Source: Halopiger xanaduensis SH-6 (lineage in GTDB: Archaea > Halobacteriota > Halobacteria > Halobacteriales > Natrialbaceae). From it: a stretch of DNA of 64,000 bases. The notes beneath the pieces were generated by a model, which was not told where the DNA came from, ran no database searches, and saw only the letters and a list, made by a program, of their open reading frames with translations. Below are positions 27,672 through 58,535 of the stretch, piece after piece; the first letter of the stretch is position 1; each line of letters begins with the position of its first letter. The position numbers and the translations under genes were made by a program. The stretch covers positions 2,988,270 through 3,052,269 of the forward strand of contig NC_015666.1 in NCBI RefSeq assembly GCF_000217715.1. The letters are read 5' to 3'.

Positions 27672-29036
27672 CTACCGGTCCGTCAGGACGGCGGTCCACT
27701 TGCCCATCGAAAGGATCAGCTGCGGCTCCGTCTCGCGGTCGCGAAACTCCGCGGTCCACCGCACCCCGCTTCCCGTACCCGCCGAAAACGAGTACGGCGA
27801 GCGCTCGACGGCGTCCGGGGAGGCGGTGAACGCGACGTCTCGCTCCGGGACGCGGATTCTGATCGTTCCGGCGGCCGCCGGTTCGACGGTTGCGGTCAAC
27901 GCGCCGCGATACGATTCGTAGGTGCCGGCGACGGCGTCGATCGCCTCGCGCACTCGGAGCGCCCGGACGGCGTCCTCGGGCCGCTCGCCGCACAGCGCAG
28001 CCAGAATCCCCGCGCCGACCGCCGTCACCGACGGACCGTGCGTGTTGAACGCCAGTGCGACAGCGACATCGTGCTCCCGAAGACATCCCATGTAGGCCCC
28101 GGAAACGCCGATGCCGCCGAGGTGAGAGACGAGCGTCTCGTCCAGGAAATCGCGGACTTCCCAGCCGTACCCGTACCCGCGGTACGTCCCGTCGACGGTC
28201 GGCAGGGACGGCGATTGACGACCGCACATCGCCTCGACGAGGTCCGGCTCGAGAATCCGCGTCCCGTCGACCGTCCCGTCGTTCAGTACGCAGCGAAGCA
28301 CCGTCGCGAGTTCCCGCGCGGGGCTGATCAGCCCGCCGGCCGGCCCGGCGCCGCCGTCGTACGCGTCCGGCGAGAGCTCGCCGTCCGCCCTCGTGTAGCC
28401 GGTCATCGCGTCGTCGGCTCGAGCGAGCGCGTCGGGATCGTACGTCGATCGGGTCATGCCCAGCGGCTCGAAGATCTCGGTCCGCACGTACTCCTCGTAC
28501 GGTCGCCCGTCGACGGCTTCGACGAGTTCGCCGAGGACGAAGTACCCGCCGTTGTAGTACATGTACCGATCGTCGTCGACCAATCGTCGATCCGCCGCGC
28601 CGTCGACGTGTTCGAACAGGTCGAGGTTCCGCCCGTCGTCGATGGCCGGGCGGCGCGCGACGAAGTCCTGCGGCATCCCCGACGAGTGGGCCAACAACTC
28701 CCGAACAGTGATCGGCGGTCCCGGAGCCTCGTTCAGGACGGCGACGTACTCGCGGAGCTCGTCCTCGAGGTCGATATCGCCGCGTTCGACCAGTTGCAGG
28801 ACGGCGATCGCGGTGACGGACTTCGTCAGCGACGCGACCGCGTACAGGGTATCGGGGGTTGCGGGAGCTTCCGATTCGACGTCTCGAACGCCGAAGCCGT
28901 TCGCGTAGCGGATCCCGTCCCGATCCGCGACGACGACGCTGGCGCCCGGAATCGATTCGGACTCCATCCACTCCTCGACGAGCGCCTCGATCTCGGTGCG
29001 AGTCGACGCCGAAACTGCGTTCTGATCCGGTGCCAT
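27672..29036 (-). CDS. Serine hydrolase of the class C beta-lactamase family
   Basis: A 454-aa penicillin-binding-protein-like enzyme. The nucleophile motif SxxK is S69-L-T-K72 in VASLTKSVTAIA. The YxN motif is Y160-Y-N162 (YMYYNGGYFVLGE). The third motif is HLGG in VSHLGGIGVSG, near residue 330. There is no signal peptide, so it is likely cytoplasmic. A C-terminal domain with ESYRGALTATVEP may be a lipocalin-like part found in such esterases. It ends 1 nt after the pcc1 stop, on the opposite strand, and its 5' flank holds a second copy of the pcc1 end. This suggests insertion. The substrate is unknown. Confidence 0.9.
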   Translation of the reverse strand: MAPDQNAVSASTRTEIEALVEEWMESESIPGASVVVADRDGIRYANGFGVRDVESEAPATPDTLYAVASLTKSVTAIAVLQLVERGDIDLEDELREYVAVLNEAPGPPITVRELLAHSSGMPQDFVARRPAIDDGRNLDLFEHVDGAADRRLVDDDRYMYYNGGYFVLGELVEAVDGRPYEEYVRTEIFEPLGMTRSTYDPDALARADDAMTGYTRADGELSPDAYDGGAGPAGGLISPARELATVLRCVLNDGTVDGTRILEPDLVEAMCGRQSPSLPTVDGTYRGYGYGWEVRDFLDETLVSHLGGIGVSGAYMGCLREHDVAVALAFNTHGPSVTAVGAGILAALCGERPEDAVRALRVREAIDAVAGTYESYRGALTATVEPAAAGTIRIRVPERDVAFTASPDAVERSPYSFSAGTGSGVRWTAEFRDRETEPQLILSMGKWTAVLTDR

Positions 29037-30267: not shown

Positions 30268-31029
30268 CTAACTGAACGATCCCAGCGACGACTGCAGGCT
30301 TCGATCGGTCGCTCCCTCCTCGAGCTCGTAGCCGACCAGATCGCGCATGTCGACGGCGTAGGTCGTCCCGCCGTTCTCGAGGACGAGCAGCCGACCCTTC
30401 ACGCCGACGACCGTCCCGGACGCGATCGTCTCGCGAACGGGTCGGCCCCGGAGTTCGAGCCCGTAGTCGAACGAAAAGCGGTCGATGACGTCGGTCTTGA
30501 GGGACTCGAGCGTTCGTTCCCAGGCCGCTTGATCGACGGTCGCCGCGAGCGAGGCGATCTTCGGCCCGGTGCGGACGCGGTCCGTCAGCCGCCGGGCGAT
30601 CTCGGCCTCGATTTCGCGGGCGATGCGGCCGTTCGAGACGGTGTGGACGTGGGCCGCGCGGTCGGCCCCCTGCTCGCGGAGGCGGGTCTCGAGGCGCCGC
30701 GATTTGGTGACGCCGACCTTGAACGTGTCCGGGGCGAACGCGGCGATGTAGACCGCGTGCTCCTCGTAGCAGTCCATTTCGTCCTTGAGGCAGGTGCCGG
30801 TACAGCGGGCGCAGACCCACGTGCTGGTGTGATATTCGCAGTACGGCGCCGCCGGGCGGTCGCAGGCGACGTGCTCGCCGTCGTCGATCGTGCCGGCGCA
30901 GCGTCGCTCTCCGAGCGCGTACGAGAGGGCGTCGCCGGACTCGAGTTCGCGGCGTTCGATCGCGCCGCTCTCGTCGGCCAGCAACAGTGCGGACCCGCGA
31001 CCGCTCGGCTCGTAACCCACCAGTTGCAC
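30268..31029 (-). CDS. DUF2797 family protein: zinc cluster, GIY-YIG-like stretch, C-terminal PIP-box-like tail
   Basis: A 253-aa protein. A cysteine-rich part holds C44, C56, C64, C73, C76, C80 and C87 (WVCARCTGTC in the middle) and should bind zinc. VYIAAFAPDTFKVGVTKSRR (from residue 93) then looks like the start of a GIY-YIG fold, with arginines near 111-116 and glutamates near 139-143. The last ten residues SLQSSLGSFS fit a PCNA-binding motif, Q246-x-x-L249-x-x-F252. The FEN1 of this window ends the same way (QTGLDRWT). DUF2797 has no established function. A DNA-repair or replication-linked role is my inference. Confidence 0.85.
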   Translation of the reverse strand: MQLVGYEPSGRGSALLLADESGAIERRELESGDALSYALGERRCAGTIDDGEHVACDRPAAPYCEYHTSTWVCARCTGTCLKDEMDCYEEHAVYIAAFAPDTFKVGVTKSRRLETRLREQGADRAAHVHTVSNGRIAREIEAEIARRLTDRVRTGPKIASLAATVDQAAWERTLESLKTDVIDRFSFDYGLELRGRPVRETIASGTVVGVKGRLLVLENGGTTYAVDMRDLVGYELEEGATDRSLQSSLGSFS

Positions 31030-57557: not shown

Positions 57558-58535
57558 ATGGGAAACGCTGCACTCCGGGACATTGCGGTCATCGAGGAGA
57601 TCCCCTTCTCCGAAATCGAGGGCGTCGTCGCCGTCGACGCGCACAACTGGCTCTACCGCTACCTGACGACGACGGTCAAGTGGACCGATAGCTCGGTGTA
57701 CACGACAGCCGACGGGACCGAGGTCGCAAACCTCGTCGGCATCGTCCAAGGCCTCCCAAAATTCTTCGAGAACGACGTCACGCCCGTGATGGTCTTCGAC
57801 GGCGGCCCCTCCGAACTGAAGGAGGACGAGATCGAATCCCGCCGCGACCAGCGCCGGACCTACGAGGAGCAACTCGAGACCGCTCGCGAGGAGGGCGACG
57901 AGGTCGCCATCGCGCAACTCGAGTCGCGCACCCAGCGGCTGACGCCGACGATCCAGGAGACCAGCCGCGAGCTCCTCCGGCTGCTCGACGTGCCGATCGT
58001 CGAGGCGCCCGCCGAGGGCGAGGCCCAGGCGGCCCACATTGTCCGCCGCGGCGACGCCGACTACGTCGGCTCGGAGGACTACGACGCCCTCCTGTTCGGC
58101 GCGCCGCTTACCCTCCGCCAGCTGACGAGCAAGGGCGATCCCGAACTGATGGACCTCGAGGCCACCCTCGCACACCACGACCTGACCCTCGAGCAACTGA
58201 TCGACGCGGCCATCCTCATCGGCACGGACTTCAACGAGGGGGTCTCCGGGATCGGCCCGAAGACCGCGATCAAAGAGATCACCGAGCACGGCGACCTCTG
58301 GAGCGTCCTCGAGGCCCGCGGCGACTCGATCGAGTACGGCGACCGCGTCCGGCAACTGTTCCGCGATCCGAACGTCACCGACGAGTACGAGTTCGACACG
58401 GCGATGGATCCGGACCTCGAGGCGGCCCGCGAGTACGTCACCGACGAGTGGGGCGTCGCCCCCGACGAGGTCGAACGCGGCTTCGAGCGCATCAAGGAGA
58501 GCGTCACCCAGACTGGCCTGGATCGCTGGACGTAA
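57558..58535 (+). CDS. fen1: Flap endonuclease 1 (FEN1)
   Basis: A 325-aa XPG/FEN1 nuclease. The N-terminal domain has [14 protein letters not shown] and [14 protein letters not shown]; the internal domain [20 protein letters not shown] and DALLFGAPL. The helix-two-turn-helix is [20 protein letters not shown]. The final residues QTGLDRWT form a PCNA-binding box. The enzyme removes 5' flaps of Okazaki fragments and acts in base excision repair. Its length is normal for haloarchaea. The promoter region is short and overlaps a tRNA-like fragment. Confidence 0.96.

Follow-up and report, generated by a model that had tools for sequence, protein, structure and literature searches.

The window analyzed here is a stretch of 64,000 nucleotides from the Halopiger xanaduensis SH-6 genome (NC_015666.1). 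On its reverse strand, at 30268–31029, lies an open reading frame of 253 codons that starts with GTG and ends with a stop codon at 30268–30270. The encoded protein had been assigned to the DUF2797 family, and the assignment is correct: it matches the Pfam profile PF10977 with an E-value of 6.6e-23 and 82.2 bits, where the curated cut-off is 25. The GTG start is backed by the N-terminal sequence M-Q-[LIV]-V-G-Y, which is kept in the orthologue alignment. DUF2797 is a single-copy gene in the 4.36-Mb genome, and orthologues are present in 57 of 61 related haloarchaeal genomes. (Natronorubrum bangense has two equal-scoring copies with the same C-terminus, one on the chromosome and one on an 828-kb plasmid.) No relatives were found in viral contigs or phages by the searches used. 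There is no repair operon in the gene neighborhood; the genes nearby encode CbiX, BsuPI and a small membrane protein, and are kept in only part of the family. Elsewhere in the window (27672–29036, reverse strand) is a gene for a serine beta-lactamase-family protein with a C-terminal Pab87-type octamerisation domain.

The most telling part of the protein is its end. The last eight residues (246–253; 30271–30294, reverse strand like all features of the gene) read QSSLGSFS, that is, Q246-S-S-L249-G-S-F252-S, and have the conserved Q-x-x-hydrophobic-x-x-aromatic pattern of a PIP box in a flexible end. In an alignment of 55 orthologues reaching down to 48% identity, Q246 is found in all 55 and L249 and F252 in 53 each, and positions 237–244 vary freely. 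The linker that precedes the tail (residues 239–245; 30295–30315) has high column entropy over most of its length, and the mean pLDDT of residues 241–250 is only 47. Of 152 distinct archaeal DUF2797 proteins, 147 have a tail of the form Q..[LF]..[FWY], with leucine (143) or phenylalanine (4) at position 4 and phenylalanine (139), tryptophan (5) or tyrosine (3) at position 7. Two divergent haloarchaeal members (about 30% identity) end in QTGLTDFE and QQGLSDY, and members from beyond the Halobacteria carry F, Y or W in the tails LQTSLLEF, LQSSLLTY and VQTSLREW. The five archaeal proteins without the full motif still have the glutamine and the leucine and have lost the aromatic residue (LQTSLRMINK and RQISLRTS are examples), possibly a sign of decaying clamp binding in these lineages. 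At position 248, serine is found in 72 of 76 sequences and is encoded by both TCN and AGY codons, so selection must be acting on the peptide.

Such endings are rare by chance. Among 5519 open reading frames of at least 100 codons, taken from 80 haloarchaeal loci and the window, 83 end in the pattern Q..[LIM]..[FWY]; 79 of these are DUF2797, one is FEN1 and three are spurious, a frequency of about 0.07% outside DUF2797. The likeness to the tail of FEN1, on which the original prediction relied, is borne out and is not limited to that protein: FEN1 (57558–58535) ends in QTGLDRWT (58509–58532, forward strand), and two further proteins of the same genome, which like FEN1 belong to families already known to bind PCNA, have tails of the same type, RNase HII (QTGLEQF) and NreA (LQANLSAF). 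The PIP consensus for Haloferax volcanii, which the tail fits, is QxxLxxFx (PMC7776575), and the peptide crystallized with Archaeoglobus PCNA is KTTQSTLDSFFK (PMC4929162). By sequence criteria, then, the tail is a PIP box, without binding data; clamp binding itself is inferred and not shown, but can be expected with considerable confidence. As long as PCNA binding is unmeasured, it remains conceivable that the tail has some other binding partner, or serves as a localization signal or degron, and resembles a PIP box only by convergence, since conservation extends to Ser248 within the motif and to Arg243 and Leu245 immediately ahead of it. However, this would sit poorly with the exchange of F, W and Y at position 7, with the matching tails of FEN1, RNase HII and NreA in the same genome and with the beta-clamp peptide that takes its place in Actinobacteria (see below), and such a role is improbable.

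The protein has seven cysteines (44, 56, 64, 73, 76, 80 and 87) and the conserved histidines His53, His67 and His91. All seven cysteines of the zinc cluster that had been proposed are indeed there, but they appear to fall into two separate sites rather than one. Site 1 (30829–30900) would consist of Cys44, Cys56, Cys64 and His67, the last two forming a C-x2-[H/C] motif in relatives, and is deduced from conservation among 46 members, its confidence in the structural model being low. Site 2 (30769–30813), Cys73-x2-Cys76-x3-Cys80-x6-Cys87, also rests on conservation and is missing as a block in some members. Both are nearly invariant in Halobacteria, and His67 is replaced by cysteine in most members outside that class. 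The two sites are separate units, because each can be lost alone: the Cys73–Cys87 block is gone from one haloarchaeal protein (L053) that keeps its GIY-YIG residues and PIP tail, and appears absent in Streptomyces, while site 1 is missing in L175 and L176. Judged from sequence conservation, the Cys/His cluster is real and probably consists of two sites. The bound metal is likely to be zinc; an iron-sulfur center is not excluded, and the sequence cannot decide.

The original prediction also held that a stretch of the protein fits the start of the GIY-YIG fold, and this agrees with the predicted structure. In an AlphaFold2 model based on 44 sequences (pLDDT 81), residues 91–176 (30502–30759) are arranged as strand-strand-helix-strand-helix-helix, and each end of the chain forms beta strands; the metal sites are modeled with low confidence and the tail is disordered. 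The N-terminal strands (residues 1–42; 30904–31029; pLDDT about 86–93), which have weak matches to small beta barrels, appear in the model to pair with the C-terminal strands (residues 183–238; 30316–30483). When the isolated domain was compared with the PDB, the top 15 matches were all GIY-YIG structures (Z 3.6–5.0; the next unrelated match had 3.1), the best being Slx1 (Z 5.0 over 82 residues, 3.1 Å), with HIGLE, UvrC, I-TevI and UPF0213 (3.6) among the others. Re-alignment of the whole model to the PDB likewise gave GIY-YIG structures in the top 13 places, and the matches covering residues 4–239 were small beta barrels, all weak. In Foldseek, the first four matches of the isolated domain were GIY-YIG proteins (probability 0.87; the best E-value, 0.08, is not significant alone), and T5orf172 and GIY-YIG proteins recur in a comparison with viral models. 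With the whole model, none of the PDB matches in Foldseek reached significance, probably because the domain is inserted into the barrel.

Neither the protein nor its profile has a significant match in a sequence search of the PDB; Pfam MUG113 matches the window protein below threshold (E 0.094, 13.7 bits, cut-off 22.3), and some other members have weak T5orf172/MUG113 matches, the best T5orf172 value being 0.022. Compared by profile with 29 GIY-YIG (COG2827-like) proteins of haloarchaea, DUF2797 scored 26.4 (probability 49%), and 30 column shuffles reached no more than 15.3. A single T5orf172 sequence did no better than chance (19.8, versus 19.6 for shuffles), so only the comparison with the 29 proteins is used as evidence. 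Each of these lines is modest on its own, with Z-scores no higher than 5, but the beta-beta-alpha-beta-alpha order of the model and its nearest solved folds point the same way, and in combination they make a GIY-YIG fold highly likely.

Does the domain cut DNA? Its GIY-YIG-like stretch, VYIAAFAPDTFKVGVTKSRR, contains Tyr94 (30748–30750) and Lys104-Val-Gly106 (Lys104 at 30718–30720), and downstream of it are Arg112/Arg116 (Arg116 at 30682–30684) and Glu141 (30607–30609), all invariant or nearly so. Tyr94, Lys104, Gly106, Arg116, Gln120, Gly121 and Glu141 are identical in 46 of 46 members, including all the bacterial ones. In the profile alignment, Tyr94 and Lys104 fall on the GIY and YIG tyrosines, Arg116 on the catalytic arginine, Glu141 on the metal-binding glutamate and Gln120 on the histidine. 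The expected start of the fold with Arg and Glu downstream is thus found in Tyr94, Arg116 and Glu141, but the "YIG" tyrosine is a lysine in all 46 members, and for this reason the domain is described here as GIY-YIG-like and not as canonical. That tyrosine is not strictly required, since the nuclease R.Hpy188I has a lysine in the same position (PMC2630997), and Gp88, a T5orf172 nuclease, likewise does without the His/Tyr that is usual in the first helix (PMC8263062). These precedents make nuclease activity plausible, although the replacement of both the tyrosine and the usual catalytic histidine means that it should not be assumed; that DUF2797 is an active nuclease is inferred, not shown, and only fairly probable. 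The same two replacements are what one might find in a non-catalytic protein, a GIY-YIG-derived adaptor that is tethered to the clamp, recognizes a DNA structure and brings in or controls further factors there. The GIY-YIG domain of Arabidopsis MSH1 binds branched DNA and does not cut on its own (PMC6963530). However, the complete retention of Tyr94, Lys104, Arg116 and Glu141 across archaea and bacteria is more than one would expect a binding fold to need, and with the lysine of R.Hpy188I as a counterexample, an adaptor without activity is the unlikelier reading.

What happens to the tail outside the archaea? The bacterial sample is small: only seven genes, all on plasmids and drawn from three or four lineages, with no bacterial chromosomes. 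In six of the seven actinobacterial proteins the C-terminus meets the criterion for a beta-clamp motif (QxxLF or QxxLxL): QASLF (twice), QTTLF and QPALF in Streptomyces, QEALF in Kitasatospora and QMALPLG in Miltoncostaea. The seventh, from Streptantibioticus, ends in PQALF and fits only in part. QxxLPL is the form that the clamp motif takes in Hda. No other open reading frame carries the motif (0 of 481, comprising 192 from the same loci and 289 from a 50-kb Streptomyces plasmid stretch), and the bacterial clamp consensus at C-termini is QL(S/D)LF (PMC9690074). A tree of 46 DUF2797 members separates a clamp-tailed archaeal/actinobacterial clade (31 with a PIP box, four with a beta-type motif and three archaeal ones whose tail is degenerate) from a second clade, in which all eight copies, from Gammaproteobacteria, Cyanobacteria and in a few cases haloarchaea, lack a tail motif, with support of 100/99; two long-branched actinobacterial sequences are of uncertain placement. 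It had been suggested that alignment of DUF2797 C-termini would show whether the tail is conserved. It is among the best-conserved parts of the archaeal proteins, but is not a PIP box throughout the family: Actinobacteria carry a beta-clamp-like version, and the gammaproteobacterial/cyanobacterial clade has none.

In the tail-less clade, a Pseudomonas aeruginosa plasmid has the order rhomboid, DUF1315, DUF2797, pepN. Evo has been used to link DUF2797 to rhomboid and M1 peptidase (PMC12804078); this link is explained by gene order in this clade and is silent on function. A plasmid of Halocatena salina has a tail-less, gammaproteobacterial-type DUF2797 gene directly before a gene for a Piwi-domain (Argonaute) protein (L199, 1342–3726). 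On three Streptomyces plasmids, DUF2797 lies in a conserved cassette with folE (in two of the three), unknown genes, thymidylate kinase, a SAM methyltransferase and NUDIX, possibly a modified-nucleotide cluster. With such neighbors, and with zinc-ribbon-like sites that could bind RNA, the domain might be thought to have RNA or a nucleotide, and not DNA at the fork, as its substrate; but the clamp motifs in two domains of life point to double-stranded DNA, and little credence can be given to this idea.

A clamp-bound DNA enzyme, by comparison, has a close parallel in NucS/EndoMS. That nuclease likewise carries a C-terminal PIP box in archaea and a C-terminal beta-clamp motif in Actinobacteria, on a flexible tail past the nuclease core (PMC8228993, PMC4929162), the actinobacterial form being [EK][LY][TR]LF (PMC8228993). 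A switch between PIP box and beta-clamp motif in DUF2797 therefore has a well-studied precedent. The two proteins are otherwise distinct: NucS has a RecB-like nuclease domain, whereas DUF2797 has a GIY-YIG-like domain, Cys/His metal sites and no known substrate; the window protein has no NucS_C (PF01939) match, and NucS is a separate gene in the same genome. (In this genome, the NucS reading frame closes with LEPPAE and has no PIP-like tail, in contrast to the thermococcal protein, and a stop codon lies inside the profile match.) Within the GIY-YIG proteins, DUF2797 resembles the T5orf172/MUG113 branch, with a tyrosine at +0, a lysine at +10 followed by V/I-G, an arginine in the next helix and a glutamate in the one following, and differs from it in that the first helix of DUF2797 begins with two additional residues and in having metal sites, a beta barrel in two parts and a clamp tail. 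R.Hpy188I shares the lysine but is a sequence-specific restriction enzyme. We know of no clamp motif in that enzyme. Slx1, the N-terminal domain of UvrC and I-TevI are the nearest solved folds, but have the canonical YIG tyrosine, other partners and low sequence identity. NreA, a haloarchaeal PCNA-binding repair protein, also has a C-terminal PIP tail, but belongs to another Pfam family (Nre_C) and is found only in archaea.

Taken as a whole, DUF2797 of the archaeal/actinobacterial clade is probably a sliding-clamp-tethered GIY-YIG-like endonuclease, in which both clamp binding and cleavage are inferred; a role in repair or at the fork, also inferred, is favored only slightly. In the proposed mechanism, a nuclease domain of the T5orf172/MUG113 type would split a small beta barrel into two halves and follow one or two Cys/His metal sites; these probably contribute to gripping the DNA, which the barrel would hold too. 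The flexible linker would present the C-terminal peptide, and this would dock in the pocket of PCNA in archaea (the PIP tail) or in the beta clamp in Actinobacteria (QxxLF or QxxLPL). The clamp would thus place the protein on DNA that has just been replicated or is damaged. There the GIY-YIG-like domain would cleave a substrate with a branch, a mismatch or damage, akin to NucS/EndoMS; the actual substrate is unknown, and no binding, structural or phenotypic data on DUF2797 were found. In evolutionary terms, DUF2797 may be a family of clamp-tethered nucleases spanning two domains of life. On moving between archaea and Actinobacteria, the gene would have exchanged a clamp peptide of the PCNA type for one of the beta-clamp type, or vice versa, and the family would represent an unrecognized pathway of replication-coupled repair or fork processing in nearly all haloarchaea. 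The chances that this larger picture is right are about even.

What would be new is the clamp-tethered nuclease with a GIY-YIG-like domain, a pairing that is undescribed in the searchable literature. No description of the DUF2797 tail or fold was found there (most subscription literature lies outside it), none of the papers in it that name DUF2797 concerns its function, and PF10977 is unmentioned. The accessible part of a review of archaeal PCNA does not name DUF2797, and GIY-YIG, PIP box and PCNA occur together only in a paper on plant organelles, which, in the portion available, does not join them in one protein. Few partners of archaeal PCNA are known beyond a core set, and two of them, NucS and NreA, each gave a pointer to a repair pathway. 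If the interpretation is true, DUF2797 would add a partner that has a predicted active site and is present in 57 of the 61 sampled haloarchaeal genomes, and would join NucS as an example of a switch between PCNA and beta-clamp peptides. Its tail can be removed in the genetically tractable Haloferax volcanii. DUF2797 may thus be an overlooked replication-linked DNA-repair nuclease in almost all salt-loving archaea.
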